From Bacteroidales bacterium (GTDB lineage Bacteria; Bacteroidota; Bacteroidia; Bacteroidales; UBA932), in assembly GCA_015060405.1 (NCBI GenBank), contig SUYN01000002.1, positions 186,001 to 250,000 on the forward strand: a DNA stretch of 64,000 nucleotides, in the 5' to 3' direction. Positions 30,905 to 37,205 of the stretch are shown piece by piece. Each line of letters opens with the position of its first letter. The stretch's first letter is position 1. A program made the position numbers and the translations under genes. Under the pieces are notes generated by a model. It worked only from the letters and a program-made list of their open reading frames with translations, was not told the origin of the DNA and did no database searches.

Positions 30905-31041
30905 CGACCCGATCCGTCATTCCCGACTCGATCGGGAATCCTTTCGCCCCCTCGTCCCCGTCATTTCCGCCCCGATCCGTCATTCCCGACTCGATCGGGA
31001 ATCCCCCTTCTGTCACCTCGAGCGAAGTCGAGAGGTCTCCC
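30905..31041. repeat. Cluster of palindromic repeats after the arabinose operon
   Basis: Two class 1 copies (30914-30941 and 30977-31006, with CCGTCATTCCCGACTCGATC), a partial copy between them, and a class 2 copy (31011-31041, CACCTCGAGCGAAGTCGAGA) lie head to tail. Their hairpins may end transcription of the operon. Confidence 0.85.
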
Positions 31042-31054
31042 TTGATCTTATAAA

Positions 31055-31401
31055 CTATTTACTGCTACTGGTTTTAAAACCGATTTTAGAGCGGGGTGTG
31101 TTCTCTGGCTGGTCTTTGATGGACAGGGCGGCAATGGCTTGGTAGATTGTGTCTATTTCTCTGCGTACGTCTTCAGACAGGTCGTTGATTGCTTCAAGGT
31201 TGTCTTCGTCGTTCCTTTCCAAAAGCTCCAGCTTGGCTTTGATGGCTTTGAGTTCGGCTGAGAAGGAGGAGGTAATAGCTGTGGAACTATGTAACACTGA
31301 TGATAACATCGCTACTCCTTGCTCGGTAAATACATATGGTAGCGAACGGGATCCTCCCCAACTTGATATTCCATTTTGGAATTTCAAGTTTTCTTCTACA
31401 T
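31055..31401 (-). pseudogene. 3' remnant of an ORF6N-domain gene
   Basis: The track ORF 31055-31660 is a chimera. Its C-terminal 115 or so residues have the ORF6N pattern (LPYVFTEQGVAMLSSVLHSSTAI) and a coiled-coil tail ending in SKIGFKTSSSK. Upstream of about 31401 it runs into a copy of the mrp 3' end and palindromic repeats, translated out of context. The N-terminal DNA-binding part, seen intact in the homolog at 43309, is missing. The sequence is therefore a truncated gene, cut where the mrp repeat begins. Confidence 0.75.
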
Positions 31402-31562
31402 AAAATCCCCGACCAAGGCCGGGGATGATAAGGTGTTGTGTTAGTATAGGGTTTCTGCTATTTTTTCGGCGAGGGCGAGGAAGGCGAGGCCGTCGGGGCG
31501 GGAGCTGAGAGCGGCGGGTTCGCCGGCGTCGCCGCATTCGCGGATGCTTTGGACGATCGGGA
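31402..31562 (-). repeat. Second copy of the mrp 3' end (left border of the island)
   Basis: These 161 bp match 36099-36259 with four mismatches. On the minus strand they encode the last residues of Mrp (IRECGDAGEPAALSSRPDG through AETLY and a stop), with two conservative changes (LSLAEKV to LALAEKI). They also include the class 1 palindromic repeat that follows the stop. The 5' part of the gene is absent. Confidence 0.9.
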
Positions 31563-31608
31563 ATCCCCCTTCTGTCATCTCTAGCGACCGGAGGGAGTCG
31601 AGAGATCT
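31552..31608. repeat. Palindromic repeats, class 1 fragment plus class 2 copy
   Basis: GATCGGGAATCCCCC is followed by TCTGTCATCTCTAGCGACCG and AGGGAGTCGAGAGATCTCAT. The class 2 copy is the closest intergenic match to the one inside mutS. Confidence 0.75.
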
Positions 31609-31617
31609 CATAAGATT

Positions 31618-31740
31618 GATCCTCGCAGAAAACTAGCGGGATTCTTCTGCAAGGATTCAAAAAACCGCTTCAAAAAGGTCTATTTTGTACAGAAAAAGGA
31701 ATTCTCGCAGAAGAATTGCCGGATTTCTTTGCGAGGATTC
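31618..31740 (+). repeat. Pair of 42-bp imperfect repeats, each an inverted repeat
   Basis: Units at 31618-31659 and 31699-31740 share CCTCGCAGAA, GCGGGATTCTTCTGC-like and GAGGATTC segments. Each can fold on itself. They lie between the island border and the promoter of the target lipoprotein gene. Role unknown. Confidence 0.65.
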
Positions 31741-31838: not shown

Positions 31839-34700
31839 ATGAAGAAACTTCACAGCTGCATCGCAGCCCTTTTTACTATATTTTCCCTCGTCTCCTGCCT
31901 CCAGGAAGAACGCTCTCCAGAAGAAATCCTCGTGCCGTCACCGGCGGAGGTAGACTGCTCGGAGTCGTTCTCCCTCACCTCCAAAGTTCCCAAGGGCTCC
32001 GAAAAGCTGGTGGAAGAGTGCGGCTTCCTCGTAGGAACCACAAAAGACCTTGCAGATGCGCTCACGGTTGAAGGTGCAATGACCGAAAACACCTTCAGCG
32101 CCGCCCTCCCTGCCCGCAAATACGGCACGACATATTACATCTGTTCGTATGTAACCAACGGACGAGGCTCCGAGATAAGGTCAGACCTAATCTCATATGA
32201 ACTCAAGTCCTTGGAGGAGTACGTTTCATTCGGCAAGATCAAGTTACTGTCCTATAATCCTCTGACCAAACAGGCCGAGATAACCATACCAGTTGAGATT
32301 CAGTCTGGCGTGAATGTGACTGAAGTCGGTGTCTGCTACGGCTCAAGCGAGTCTCTTTCTGATGAGGATACCTATGTCGAGGGTACAATCAGTGAGGACG
32401 GCACCATCACAGTTTCTCTTGAAGGCTTTAAAGATGGTACCCAGTACTATATGCGTCCGTACATAAAGGAGAATGAATATATTGCATATGCTGAGACATC
32501 TCCATTCTTTATTCAGCCTATTCCAGTGGTTGTCACCTATGCAGCCAAAGACATCACTTCCGAAAGCGCAGTACTTTCCGGAGAGGTGGAAAGAGGCGAA
32601 AACATTACCGAGAGGGGCTTCGTCTGGCTGAACGGTCAGGGCACTCCGACAATCGACTCCTACAAACTGAAGGTGGACGGAACCCTTGGAAAATTTACAG
32701 CCTCGCTCTCCGATCTCGATGCAAATTCAAGGTACGCTTACCGCGCCTATGTTGCAAATGACCAGGGCGTCTTCTATGGCGACATCCTGACTTTCAGCAC
32801 CATGGCCGGTGCCGCATCACTTTCAGCGATAAAGGTCACCAACATCACCACCTCCTCTGCGACCTTCACCTGTACCGTGACAAATCACGGCGGCGAGACC
32901 GTCTCTGAGGTTGGCTTCTACATCGGCAAAGATGAAGAAGTGGATATGGAAACAGCTCAGAAGGTCAGCGAGGCCTATAGCTCAGACAACTTCACCCTCT
33001 CAGCAGAGGACCTTGAAATCGGCCAGGACTACTATGTAAAGGCCTTCGCAAAGAACTCTGTAGGTGAGGCATACAGCGCAATAGTCTCCTTCAAGACCAT
33101 AAGCACCGCTCCAAGTGTCATAACTGTAGGTTCGTCAGAACTTTCAGCCACAAGCGCTGAACTCTCCGGTGAAGTCACCGACGACAACGGCGAAATCATC
33201 ACCGAGCGTGGTTTCGTGTGGATGAAAGGAAGCGGAACTCCTACAACTTCATCGTCTAAGTTGACCGCTGATGGCACCACAGGAGCCTTCACAGCAACCT
33301 TGACAGATGTTACTCCTAATCAGATATATTCATATAGAGCTTATGCAATAAACTCTATGGGTACTTCTTATGGTGAGGTGATGACCTTTGAAATACAGGT
33401 CGATCTGCCAACTGTCACCACAGATGAGGTAACCGACATTACGGACTTCAGCGCAGTTTCAGGAGGAAATGTTACCGCCGACGGTGGCGCAGACATTCTG
33501 GCCAAGGGAATAGTGTGGAGCCGTTCGAAGAATCCTACAGTGGACCTTGAGACCAAGACCGATGAAGGAACCGGCCTTGATTCCTTTACAAGCACAATGT
33601 CCAACCTGACCTCCGGCTCGACTTATTATGTCAGGGCTTACGCCACCAACGTCGTAGGAACAGGATATGGCAAGGAAATGGAATTCAAGACCACTGGCGA
33701 AGCCCCTTACGTCGCCCTTGAAGCTGCCAACTGTTTTATTGTTTCGGAATCTGGCATATATTCGTTCAGTACCGTAAAGGGTAATAGTTCCGAATCAGTT
33801 GGAAACGTAGAATGTGCAGAGGTTTTGTGGGAGTCTTTTGGAACATCGGAAACGCCGAAAGTAGGTTCTTTGGTATCTTCTGTTTCCGTTCAAGGCGACG
33901 CGATTGTCTTCGATGTTGCCGATCCTTACCGCGAGGGTAACGCAGTGATTGCGGCCAAGGATGCTTCTGGCACCATCCTTTGGTCTTGGCACATCTGGCT
34001 GACCGATGAGCCTGGGGAGCAGGTGTATTATAACAATGCGGGCACAATGATGGACCGCAACCTCGGTGCGACATCTGCTACTCCTGGCGATGTGGGTGCT
34101 TTGGGACTTTTGTACCAGTGGGGTCGTAAGGATCCATTCCTCGGTTCATCGTCTATCAGCAGTTCTACAGAGGCAAAATCCACCCTTACTTGGCCGTCAG
34201 CAGTATCGTCAGATTCTTCAACAGGTACAATAGAATATGCCACCGCGAATCCAACTACATTCATCACTTCCAATAGTAGTAATTACGATTGGTATTATAC
34301 TGGTTCAAGCAGTACAGACGACACCCGTTGGCAGTCAGAGAAGACAATATATGATCCTTGTCCTGCAGGTTGGCGTGTTCCCGATGGCGGAAGTGATGGT
34401 GTTTGGTCGAAAGCACTTGGTTCATCTTCATCTTATTCCGGGGCATACGACAGCACCAATGAGGGTATGAACTTCTCCGGCAATTTCGGCGATGCTTCCA
34501 CCATCTGGTATCCTGCTTCGGGTTATCGCATCTACGACGGTGGGGCGCTGCTCAATGTCGGCTACTATGGCTACTATTGGTCAGTTACTCCTGGCGATAG
34601 CTACGCTTACTACCTGTACTTCAGCAGCTCTGGCTACGTCTATCCGTCCTTCAGCTACTATCGAGCGGGCGGGTTTGGCGTCCGTTGCGTCCAAGAGTGA
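31839..34700 (+). CDS. DGR target: surface lipoprotein with FN3-like repeats and variable lectin-like C terminus
   Basis: The track starts at 31716. The ATG at 31839 gives a lipoprotein signal (MKKLHSCIAALFTIFSLVSC) and 953 residues. After a short N-terminal domain come about five to six beta-sandwich repeats with recurring ITERGFVW..GTPT and YSYRAYA..G.SYGEV motifs. A C-terminal domain of the C-type-lectin/FISUMP kind follows (MMDRNLGATS, LLYQWGRKDPF, YDPCPAGWRVPDGG). Its last 62 residues (about 892-953) are encoded by the variable repeat and are rich in Tyr and Ser at the varied positions, ending in VRCVQE. Diversified proteins of this build display a binding face on the cell surface. The ligand is unknown. 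Confidence 0.88.
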   Translation: MKKLHSCIAALFTIFSLVSCLQEERSPEEILVPSPAEVDCSESFSLTSKVPKGSEKLVEECGFLVGTTKDLADALTVEGAMTENTFSAALPARKYGTTYYICSYVTNGRGSEIRSDLISYELKSLEEYVSFGKIKLLSYNPLTKQAEITIPVEIQSGVNVTEVGVCYGSSESLSDEDTYVEGTISEDGTITVSLEGFKDGTQYYMRPYIKENEYIAYAETSPFFIQPIPVVVTYAAKDITSESAVLSGEVERGENITERGFVWLNGQGTPTIDSYKLKVDGTLGKFTASLSDLDANSRYAYRAYVANDQGVFYGDILTFSTMAGAASLSAIKVTNITTSSATFTCTVTNHGGETVSEVGFYIGKDEEVDMETAQKVSEAYSSDNFTLSAEDLEIGQDYYVKAFAKNSVGEAYSAIVSFKTISTAPSVITVGSSELSATSAELSGEVTDDNGEIITERGFVWMKGSGTPTTSSSKLTADGTTGAFTATLTDVTPNQIYSYRAYAINSMGTSYGEVMTFEIQVDLPTVTTDEVTDITDFSAVSGGNVTADGGADILAKGIVWSRSKNPTVDLETKTDEGTGLDSFTSTMSNLTSGSTYYVRAYATNVVGTGYGKEMEFKTTGEAPYVALEAANCFIVSESGIYSFSTVKGNSSESVGNVECAEVLWESFGTSETPKVGSLVSSVSVQGDAIVFDVADPYREGNAVIAAKDASGTILWSWHIWLTDEPGEQVYYNNAGTMMDRNLGATSATPGDVGALGLLYQWGRKDPFLGSSSISSSTEAKSTLTWPSAVSSDSSTGTIEYATANPTTFITSNSSNYDWYYTGSSSTDDTRWQSEKTIYDPCPAGWRVPDGGSDGVWSKALGSSSSYSGAYDSTNEGMNFSGNFGDASTIWYPASGYRIYDGGALLNVGYYGYYWSVTPGDSYAYYLYFSSSGYVYPSFSYYRAGGFGVRCVQE
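34512..34696 (+). repeat. Variable repeat (VR) of a diversity-generating retroelement
   Basis: VR aligns with the template repeat at 35701-35885 with no gap (constant offset 1189). I count 37 differences, and 27 are at TR adenines. The other ten are a T to C and a G to C in the body, and eight in the 3' part from the CGG/CGA codon onward, where VR and TR homing sites usually differ. The last 17 nt before the stop are identical. TAC, TAT and AGC replace AAC/AAT codons. Confidence 0.93.
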
Positions 34701-34712
34701 TTCGGACAGCGG

Positions 34713-34745
34713 TTCATATGAGCCCTGCTCGCGGGCTCATATGAA
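34713..34745 (+). other. DGR target-recognition hairpin downstream of VR
   Basis: TTCATATGAGCCC and GGGCTCATATGAA form a perfect 13-bp stem with a 7-nt loop, 12 bp after the VR stop. DGRs such as that of Bordetella phage BPP-1 need a hairpin or cruciform just after the homing site for retargeting. No such hairpin follows the template repeat. A second small GC palindrome (CTCGCGCCCGGCGCGAG, 34768-34784) lies nearby. Confidence 0.8.
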
Positions 34746-34828
34746 CATGCGTTTTGATGAATTTTTTCTCGCGCCCGGCGCGAGACGGCAGGCGCGAAGC
34801 GCCTCAAATTTCAAATATTCTTATTGTT

Positions 34829-35533
34829 ATGACCTTTAGAGAAATCATAGAAAGAGAGGACCAGAATATTGATTGTATCTGGCTGTACCGAGAAGGAATG
34901 TTTATGAAGGCGTATGAGAGAAGTGCATTTTTTGTCCATACCCTAATTCATGAGTTCAAGCTTTCTAAGAGGTATATCAAAACCATTAATATGGATGTCA
35001 TCTCTCTTGGATTTCCAGAACAGACTGTGCCCAAATGGCTAAATGGTTATGTGTATGAGTATGTTCAAGATGGTTTGATAAGATGTTTCAGCCGTAAGAA
35101 ATACGATGAGGTGGAATTCCATAATTGGAAGGAGGTGGCGAAGGTCAATGTCGGTGATCGCTTTACACCTAATACATCTGTGATAGAAAAGGCACCTGTA
35201 TATAAAACTGCATATGATCTTCTTACTCAGGTTGTTGGCTTTAGTGTACACCTTTCAAGAAATGTTTCTGATCCTATCGGTATACATCTCAAAGAACTTA
35301 CATATAAACTATGTTATACTATCCGTATGATGTACGATGTTAAGGATAAGGAGACACAGATTATTAAGGCCCTTGAATTCTGTGATGAGATCAAGTTTGT
35401 ACTCCAATTGTTCAAAGACTTAAAAGAAATATCAATTAATACTTTTGCGCTTGCAAGTGAACGTGTCGTATCTGTCAGCAAACAGCTCTCTGCACTTCGT
35501 GGAAAGGTTACGGCTGAAATACACGGGGTTTGA
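34829..35533 (+). CDS. avd: DGR accessory protein: MutS-like (MSL) domain fused to Avd
   Basis: The ATG at 34829 (MTFREIIEREDQ) is chosen over 34754, which would read through the GC palindrome. The 234-residue protein has two parts. Residues 1-90 resemble the mismatch-reading domain I of MutS: CIWLYREGMFMKAYERSAFFV parallels FRCGDFYETYGDDAL, and ISLGFPEQTVPKWL parallels MAGFPYHSLETYL. Residues about 120-234 (YKTAYDLLTQVVGFSVHLSRN through VSKQLSALRGK) form a four-helix bundle like bAvd, which binds the DGR reverse transcriptase and template RNA. MSL and Avd are both known DGR accessory types. The gene is richer in A+T than its neighbours, suggesting transfer. It lies between VR and TR, as is usual. 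No RT follows. Confidence 0.82.
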   Translation: MTFREIIEREDQNIDCIWLYREGMFMKAYERSAFFVHTLIHEFKLSKRYIKTINMDVISLGFPEQTVPKWLNGYVYEYVQDGLIRCFSRKKYDEVEFHNWKEVAKVNVGDRFTPNTSVIEKAPVYKTAYDLLTQVVGFSVHLSRNVSDPIGIHLKELTYKLCYTIRMMYDVKDKETQIIKALEFCDEIKFVLQLFKDLKEISINTFALASERVVSVSKQLSALRGKVTAEIHGV

Positions 35534-35700
35534 ATGATTCAGCAGCCCACCGCCACCGGATAATTCTGTCTTTTACAGGATGAAGAATCTATGTCCGACG
35601 GTCATATATACTAGTCTGCTTAGGTGTCAACGTCAAGTTTCCGCTTAGGCATTCATCAAAAGATAGGTTCTACCGACTCTTATAGCGGCTGCTTTAAATG

Positions 35701-35885
35701 CCTGCTTCGGGTTATCGCAACAACGACGATGGGGCGCTGAACAATGTCGGCAACAATGGCAACTATTGGTCAGTTACTCCTAACAATAACAACGCTTACA
35801 ACCTGAACTTCAACAACAATGGCAATGTCAATCCGACGAACAACAACAATCGGGCGTCCGGCTTCTCGGTCCGTTGCGTCCAAGA
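35701..35885 (+). repeat. Template repeat (TR) of a diversity-generating retroelement
   Basis: This 185-bp segment matches the VR and is packed with AAC and AAT codons (for example AACAACAACAAT near 35840). These can be mutated at A without creating stop codons. The track ORF 35698-35895 is its translation and is not a gene. The strand is the same as VR and Avd. A terminator follows 50 bp later. The 5' flank (35534-35700) has no ORF and probably forms the leader of the template RNA. Confidence 0.92.
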
Positions 35886-35936
35886 ATCAGAATAATTCGA
35901 TTAGCGAGTCCGTATGCCCCAGCGTAGCAAGGGCAG

Positions 35937-35988
35937 AGGGACCTCCGACACTTTTTCAGCAATACTGTCGGAGGTCCCTGCTTTTTTT
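35937..35988 (+). terminator. Terminator of the TR transcript
   Basis: AGGGACCTCCGACA pairs exactly with TGTCGGAGGTCCCT across a 15-nt loop and is followed by GCTTTTTTT. Confidence 0.9.
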
Positions 35989-35990
35989 GG

Positions 35991-36031
35991 GGTATCTCCG
36001 ACACAAATCCCGTAAAAGTGTCGGAGGTACC
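35991..36031. repeat. Second hairpin sharing the terminator stem
   Basis: GGTATCTCCGACAC pairs with GTGTCGGAGGTACC. The stem core (CTCCGACA) is the same as in the adjacent terminator, so this looks like a duplicated and drifted copy lacking a T-tract. Confidence 0.7.
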
Positions 36032-36035
36032 CTTA

Positions 36036-36098
36036 GCTTTAATGCATCGCTTTCAAGTTTGATGTCACAGATTGTGACTGCAAGTTTTCGCTTGCACA
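36036..36098 (-). pseudogene. Tiny ORF6N-gene remnant beside mrp
   Basis: On the minus strand this reads ASENLQSQSVTSNLKAMH and then a stop, which resembles the middle of ORF6N proteins (ENLKSQ..TS). It occupies the same place, just after the mrp stop and palindromic repeat, as the longer ORF6N remnant does after the left mrp copy. Confidence 0.45.
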
Positions 36099-36259
36099 AA
36101 AATCCCCGACCAAGGCCGGGGATGATAAGGTGTTGTGTTAGTATAGGGTTTCTGCTACTTTTTCGGCGAGGGAGAGGAAGGCGAGGCCGTCGGGGCGGGA
36201 GCTGAGGGCGGCTGGTTCGCCGGCGTCGCCGCATTCGCGGATGCTTTGGACGATCGGGA
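36099..36259 (-). repeat. mrp 3' end, right copy of the island border repeat
   Basis: This 161-bp segment is repeated at 31402-31562 in the same orientation (4 mismatches). It includes the last 120 or so bp of the intact mrp gene and the class 1 palindromic repeat after its stop (36101-36129). Confidence 0.9.
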
Positions 36260-37205
36260 TCTGGCCCAGGAGCTGGATGCCGTATTTCTCGGCCATTCTT
36301 ACACCGCCTTCTTTTCCGAAGATGTAGTACTTTTCGTCAGGGTGTTCTGCAGGGGTGAACCAGGCCATATTTTCGACAAGTCCGAAGATTGGCTTGTTGA
36401 CGCTTTCGTTGCGGAACATATTGACTCCCTTTTCTACGTCTGCGAGGGCCACGTCCTGTGGGGTGCTGACGATGACTGCTCCTTCCATCGGGATGTCGTG
36501 GACGAGGCTGATATGGATGTCGCCTGTTCCAGGAGGCATATCTATGAGGAGGAAGTCGAGTTCGCCCCAGCGTACCTGCAGAATCATCTGCTTCAGTGCG
36601 TTGCATGCCATAGGACCGCGCCAGATCAGCGCCTGTTCGGGCTTTGCGAAATAGCCTATCGACATCCACTTCACTCCATATTTCTCAAGCGGAAGGATGA
36701 CTTCCTTTTCTCCGTCCATAATGGCGTCCGGCATATCCGTTTCGCTTCCTGTCATCTTCGGAACTGACGGTCCGTAGACGTCGGCATCTGCGAGTCCGAC
36801 CTTGTAGCCTAGGCGTGCCAGCGCTACGGCAAGGTTGACTGCCACTGTTGATTTTCCCACTCCGCCCTTGCCGGAAGCTATGCCTATGATGTGTTTCACA
36901 TTCTCGAGTTCTTCTTCTCCGAGGTCAAGGCCGGGCTTCTTTTTAGGTGCCTCATCCTTGATTATGGTCTTCACCTCCACCTTAGTGCCTTCAGGGGCAT
37001 TTCTTATGACCGCGGCCTTGGTGCTTCCTATGAGGTACTCTGCAAGAGGGTCACGGTGCTTTGAAAAGGCGAGGGTTATGGTGACGGTTCCGTCATTGAT
37101 TCCGATATTCTCTACCATTCCGAGCTCCACGATGTTCTTGTCTCCCTTTGCGGGGTGCTCGACATCGCGGAGCCATGTGCTTATGTCTGCTGTATTCATA
37201 TTCAA
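36138..37205 (-). CDS. mrp: Mrp/NBP35-family Fe-S cluster carrier ATPase
   Basis: This 355-residue protein has an N-terminal MIP18/DUF59-type domain (residues 1-80) and a P-loop ATPase with IGIASGKGGVGKSTVAVNLA near residue 113. The Walker-type LLIDMPPGTGDIHI follows, then MAWFTPAEHPDEKYYIFGKEGG. Mrp (ApbC) proteins bind and deliver iron-sulfur clusters in the cytoplasm. The usual Cys-x-x-Cys of the family is replaced here by a segment ENMAWFTPAEHPDEKYY without cysteines, which is odd. It is last in a minus-strand operon, 4 bp after the S46 peptidase. Its 3' end is duplicated at 31402, marking the far border of the DGR island. Confidence 0.9.
   Translation of the reverse strand: MNMNTADISTWLRDVEHPAKGDKNIVELGMVENIGINDGTVTITLAFSKHRDPLAEYLIGSTKAAVIRNAPEGTKVEVKTIIKDEAPKKKPGLDLGEEELENVKHIIGIASGKGGVGKSTVAVNLAVALARLGYKVGLADADVYGPSVPKMTGSETDMPDAIMDGEKEVILPLEKYGVKWMSIGYFAKPEQALIWRGPMACNALKQMILQVRWGELDFLLIDMPPGTGDIHISLVHDIPMEGAVIVSTPQDVALADVEKGVNMFRNESVNKPIFGLVENMAWFTPAEHPDEKYYIFGKEGGVRMAEKYGIQLLGQIPIVQSIRECGDAGEPAALSSRPDGLAFLSLAEKVAETLY

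Follow-up and report, generated by a model that had tools for sequence, protein, structure and literature searches.

The window analysed here is a stretch of 64,000 nucleotides from a gut-type Bacteroidales bacterium, and all coordinates refer to it; the assembly of the source genome (G000) comprises 2.43 Mb in 30 contigs and is 94.26% complete. An independent repeat search of the window recovered an ungapped 185-bp repeat with 80% identity and a constant offset of 1189, which consists of the VR (34512-34696, forward strand) and TR (35701-35885, forward strand) of the diversity-generating retroelement (DGR) proposed in the original prediction. The VR and TR differ at 37 positions, 27 of which are TR adenines (hypergeometric P = 9.5e-10), two are elsewhere in the body and eight are elsewhere in the last 35 bp, exactly as had been counted by hand. 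Adenine is the differing state of the VR at only one mismatch in the 185 columns, and mismatches at TR adenines were also found for five further VRs (see below).

The VR lies in the C-terminal domain of a 953-aa lipoprotein-like protein (open reading frame 31839-34700, forward strand), the signal sequence of which ends in ...FSLVSC and which has fn3-like repeats (Pfam fn3, E = 7e-6). The C-terminus is a FISUMP/Fib_succ domain according to TIGR02145 Fib_succ_major, with an E-value of 3e-6 that is under the curated cut-off, and a C-type-lectin fold was looked at in the predicted structure of the VR domain, which is unreliable (pLDDT 37). Just 3' of the stop codon of the VR gene, we found a hairpin with a 14-bp stem and a 7-nt loop (34712-34746, forward strand; DNA fold -15.7 kcal/mol, z = -4.6), and the target hairpin/cruciform of BPP-1 sits at the equivalent position (PMC3240598). 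A putative IMH adjacent to the hairpin is suggested by the conserved 3' end of the VR.

The next gene (34829-35533, forward strand) encodes an Avd-type accessory protein of 234 aa, composed of an N-terminal domain of about 115 aa and a C-terminal Avd four-helix bundle. Residues 120-227 match PHROG 3206 ("Avd protein of DGR", E = 1e-4), relatives of the protein match the Avd profile at 3e-8, and the four-helix bundle modelled for the C-terminus can be superposed on Bordetella Avd (4dwl; TM 0.76 on the target, with a Foldseek E-value of only 0.2); the profile matches and the predicted fold thus agree with the assignment of an Avd-type protein between the VR and TR. Among 400 genomes of the genus searched, 18, including that of the window, encode an Avd relative. 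The N-terminal domain (34829-35180) is conserved in the relatives, its fold model has a pLDDT under 50, and a related stretch forms a separate or differently joined open reading frame in G013, G019, and G053. A DGR remnant in another genome (G119, contig C104, L035) retains 26 Avd residues and then leader-like sequence beside a tRNA-like sequence, with the remainder deleted.

A leader (35534-35700, forward strand), which is partly conserved in relatives (CATTCATCAAAAGATAGG) according to the alignment with the loci L071, L072, and L073, precedes the TR. Terminator-like inverted repeats (35938-36031, forward strand), found by repeat search and direct reading, lie between the cassette and the adjoining mrp gene (36138-37205, reverse strand); the Rfam search of the window gave no match. 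A repeat of the mrp 3' end had been said to begin 150 bp past the TR; it actually begins 213 bp past it (36099). Its other copy, of 161 bp (31402-31562, forward strand; repeat search), was inserted with the loss of part of an ORF6N-type gene (31004-31660), and its join to the following sequence falls in a 9-mer common to both, CGATCGGGA (9-bp microhomology). We considered the repeat as a footprint of cassette insertion and rejected this, since a second species (G397, see below) has the cassette without the copy and with an intact ORF6N gene, and since the copy is inside the broken ORF6N gene. From this comparison, the copy is taken to be a separate rearrangement.

Absence of the reverse transcriptase and complete DGRs of relatives

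As had been claimed, no reverse transcriptase (RT) gene follows the TR, and none was found in the whole assembly with the RVT_1 profile; the DGR RT of a relative as a query (E <= 10) matched only 29 residues overlapping the TR/VR. No second Avd or second TR was found in the assembly. In related genomes, a DGR-type RT was found. Full-length Avd has an adjacent RT in three Bacteroidales MAGs, SIG154 (L071, G341), SIG150 (L072, G185), and RGIG1763 (L073, G356), and RT adjoins full-length Avd of about 45% identity in G019, G083, G270, and G280 as well. The RTs of the relatives have the motifs IGNLTSQ and YVDD (direct reading).

The complete DGRs of L071, L072, and L073 have the target VR, hairpin, Avd of 234-235 aa (77-79% identical to that of the window), leader, and TR in the same order as the window, and the predicted likeness of gene order to Bacteroidales DGRs was thus borne out. 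Unlike the window, they have a DGR-type RT directly after the TR, starting about 15 nt past it, and the homology of the window to them stops at the TR end. L072 has a second VR gene after the RT, and its order, on one strand, is VR1-Avd-TR-RT-VR2. In L071 and L072 (9053-9110), the RT frame has no nearby ATG other than one inside the TR, and RT translation may start there; the window (35819-35890) keeps this TR-internal ATG and about 20 codons, after which the RT frame diverges.

No version of the window cassette with an RT was found closer than 79% in Avd among the 400 genomes of the genus, and the dN/dS of Avd since the RT loss is uninformative, because synonymous sites are saturated against the relatives. 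A phage origin of the cassette was rejected, since no Avd relative was found in viral contigs and RT relatives there reach only 41-47%; plasmid matches were all below 60%. VR-like sequences with adenine-biased mismatches against the window TR were observed in G105 (contigs C118 and C109) and G111 (contig C1; L173, L174), where RT and Avd were not found; these are probable remains of lost DGRs.

Chimeric 3' end of the TR

The TR is TR-like to about 35849 and VR-derived beyond, and the switch lies between about 35826 and 35853. In 25-bp bins, identity to the relatives' TRs and to the VR ends changes from 0.92 versus 0.71 to 0.55 versus 0.91, with the switch within 35826-35900 and the passage from one similarity to the other at 35826-35876. 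Where the relatives have IMH*, a spacer, and the RT, the window has the 3' end and flank of a VR gene, including the stop codon TAA (35850-35948, forward strand). This segment is similar to VR-gene ends and flanks of the source genome on C2 near 176250 (86.9% over 99 bp), on C3 near 76259 (89.5% over 86 bp), and on C28 near 3482 (88.2% over 85 bp), and to one on C72 of G397 (86.7% over 98 bp). The best E-value against the VR-gene ends is 1e-28, whereas the flank of the relatives' TRs matches over only 41 bp with 80% identity. The shared sequence covers the end of the window TR and some 60 bases past it, and includes GAATCAGAATAA with the stop codon of the target gene. A decayed hairpin of the VR-gene type (35908-35942, forward strand; DNA fold) is also located 3' of the TR; its 12-bp stem is intact in G397, and no hairpin was found after the TRs of the relatives. 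Furthermore, the TR codon at 157-159 is TCC in the window and AAC in the TRs of the relatives, and TCC is expected of a codon that was once subject to adenine mutagenesis. The VR-derived TR end largely explains why eight mismatches towards the 3' end are not at adenines; the remaining ones may be states peculiar to the tail of the window VR, common to its orthologue in G397.

Thus, the template is not intact as had been supposed, and IMH* and the spacer between TR and RT are gone with the RT. The spacer that follows the TR in BPP-1 is where RT-Avd is recruited and cDNA synthesis is primed (PMC12875486), and the requirement for it is known from this one phage DGR only. The window TR probably does not serve as a template any longer.

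Other VRs of the genome and their templates

Among some twenty related domains in the source genome, six VRs match the window TR with adenine-biased mismatches (P from 1e-7 to 1e-10). Their non-adenine sites do not exactly match the window TR and split them into two template types, each of which departs from it (sites 126/138 or 57/87/96). Three VRs, that of the window, its orthologue in G397, and a further VR of G397, have C at both 126 and 138, in contrast to T at 126 and G at 138 in the window TR. In the five other VRs of the source genome, site 87 is C, site 57 is C in most, and site 96 is A or G, unlike the window VR, which shares 57T, 87T, and 96T with the window TR. Over 97 sites, the VR at C27:27264 departs from its template type at no more than one non-adenine position. 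The two orthologous VRs read GGC/TAC at codon 157-159, as from AAC, and the window TR reads TCC there. The two groups of non-adenine states indicate that at least two templates existed, neither of which is the window TR, and neither inferred template was found in the assembly of the source genome. Gene conversion from other VRs of the genome was rejected as the origin of the VR differences, since both orthologous VRs keep their own non-adenine states.

At 61-86 kb of C3, the source genome has an array of some ten genes for lipoproteins with FISUMP domains, and domains are repeated in several of them (L079, L080); such an array is also present in G397 (C72, L165); most of the genes are no longer TR-like. 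The genes of the array may be old DGR targets.

The same junction in a second species

At the corresponding locus of G397 (L124), ORF6N and the VR gene are followed by a TR remnant of 49 bp, then by the same spacer and by mrp. A deletion there, which joins the equivalent of window position 34834 to that of 35837, has taken Avd together with the 5' three quarters of the TR. No RT was found in this genome (77% complete). G397 has, between an esterase gene and ORF6N, a MATE-type efflux gene (L124, 7944-9299) that the window lacks. Since the RT-less junction between TR and mrp is common to both species, it predates the separation of the two loci. The sequences at window 35850-36100 are 94% identical over 251 bp, and the pS of mrp between the two species is 0.05 in the 3' quarter, which marks a recombination tract, and 0.42-0.58 elsewhere. 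These values make an exchange of the locus between the two species by homologous recombination the most likely course. Identity along the VR gene is patchy.

A comparison of VR sequences among strains had been recommended, and we ran it between the two species. The VRs differ at 30 of 185 sites, and the differences are almost confined to TR-adenine sites (26 of 55, as against four of 130 other sites), whereas the flanks differ at one of 202 sites (Fisher P = 1e-12 for adenine versus non-adenine sites and 3e-19 for adenine sites versus flank). Two of the four non-adenine differences are in codon 157-159 and would be mutable if the ancestral codon was AAC. The contrast with the flanks indicates that the VR was rewritten after the flanks last coalesced. 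Given that both loci lack a cis RT, this rewriting is most simply attributed to a DGR acting in trans, and changes at TR-adenine sites without a cis RT are what is looked for in a degenerate DGR locus served in trans. The RT loss would then have preceded the VR rewriting. The VR alleles may also have been imported from a third lineage with an RT.

Discussion

On the best reading of the locus, its chimeric TR is probably dead, whereas the VR next to it belongs to a dispersed DGR with several targets and is still, or was until recently, live. The ancestor may have been an ordinary Bacteroidales DGR with the order VR1 target, Avd, TR, RT, and VR2 target. If TR and VR2 then underwent homologous recombination, the RT and most of VR2 would be removed, and the resulting TR would derive its last 35 bp or so and its flank, with the IMH, the stop codon, and the target hairpin, from VR2. 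Since the order VR1-Avd-TR-RT-VR2 is found in a relative, such recombination accounts for the RT loss, and, judging from the sequence, it was very probably the cause of the deletion. The loss of IMH* and of the cDNA-priming 3' spacer would disable the TR as a template. The upstream VR, which keeps its IMH and hairpin, would remain a target after the local RT loss and would be rewritten in trans by an unlinked DGR copy with a slightly different TR, which may also serve the five dispersed VR genes. That rewriting in trans followed the RT deletion is favoured, with less confidence than the deletion itself; the locus as a whole, an RT-deleted chimeric TR beside a VR rewritten in trans, seems to us reasonably probable. 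The original prediction proposed either an RT in trans or a recent loss of the RT; the cis RT has been lost and the VR, not the TR, is apparently used in trans, and the intact satellite element that was envisaged is unlikely.

We infer both the trans source of the rewriting and the inactivity of the TR, and several points bear against this reading. A second DGR is unlikely to have been missed by chance in both assemblies, unless TR/VR repeats break the assemblies or the copy sits on a lost replicon. The VR differences could have been imported from a relative with an RT, the region being a mosaic of interspecies recombination. In addition, the window TR could have acquired its non-adenine differences only after it served as a template.

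One possible explanation, which we consider rather unlikely, is that no DGR activity is left in the genome; the RT deletion would be the same, and the VR alleles would have arisen at an earlier time, or in relatives with an RT, and would have been exchanged through recombination. This is consistent with the absence of RT from both genomes, with the loss of Avd and most of the TR in G397, with the mosaic nature of the region (the low pS of mrp at the cassette end and the patchy identity of the VR gene), and with other genomes that carry VRs without RT or Avd, such as G105 (95% complete). However, nearly identical flanks around divergent VRs suggest that the rewriting was very recent; the VR at C27:27264 has kept so close to its template type, despite a divergence of about 40% between the species at synonymous sites of mrp; and the closest RT-bearing cassettes found in the genus are at 79% in Avd.

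Still less probable is a true satellite DGR, in which Avd and the window TR would both work and an RT from elsewhere would copy the window TR into the VR. Although Avd is intact and conserved, the TR is as adenine-rich as those of the relatives, and the window VR departs from it at only two non-adenine sites of the body with 57T, 87T, and 96T in common, a TR whose 3' end comes from a VR gene, in place of IMH* and the spacer, makes an intact template unlikely. The C at 126/138 in three VRs of two species and codon 157-159 also disagree with copying from this TR. Finally, an assembly artefact, in which the assembler fused the repeats (TR and VR) of a locus that was complete and dropped the RT, is conceivable for near-repeats in a genome of 30 contigs that is 94% complete, and long reads found structural variants with an intact RT in Thiohalocapsa (PMC10907252), but it is contradicted by the separately assembled G397, which has the same junction with 6% independent divergence, and is very improbable.

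Incomplete DGR loci and diversification in trans are already known. In Thiohalocapsa PB-PSB1, several DGR loci lack the RT or other parts, their VRs vary and are served in trans, and, as here, VRs were assigned to a TR elsewhere through non-adenine matches (PMC10907252). Duplication and decay are tied to transposons there, whereas the window locus is a directly readable product of recombination of a TR with a VR, with no intact master locus assembled. Treponema denticola has dispersed lipoprotein targets, and isolates keep VR genes after the loss of RT and TR (PMC4891356); those isolates kept the targets only, whereas the window locus retains Avd and the chimeric TR. The Bordetella phage BPP-1 resembles the window in the Avd fold, the adenine-specific transfer from TR to VR, and the hairpin 3' of the target IMH (PMC3240598, PMC12875486), but it is phage-borne and complete, with a single target and the RT after the TR. 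In the literature searched, which was mostly open-access, we found no earlier description of a DGR that had lost its RT when a TR recombined with a VR.

Counts of mismatches between a VR and the nearest TR can mislead when that TR is chimeric, and such counts should be read with caution. Because the TR and VR are direct repeats, a DGR with two targets risks deleting its own RT by recombination. The window locus resembles such a deletion product, the breakpoint of which is legible from the hairpin, the stop codon, and the adenine-derived TR codon. Together with the match in G397, it provides a natural experiment on whether a target diversifies after the loss of its own RT, which is seldom available outside long-read population data. 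As a tentative proposal, the RT-deleted locus may have spread between species by recombination, while an unlinked and unassembled master DGR with its own TRs still rewrites the target and maintains at least six variable lipoproteins genome-wide; recombination between TR and VR would thus recurrently make cis loci dependent on a DGR in trans.
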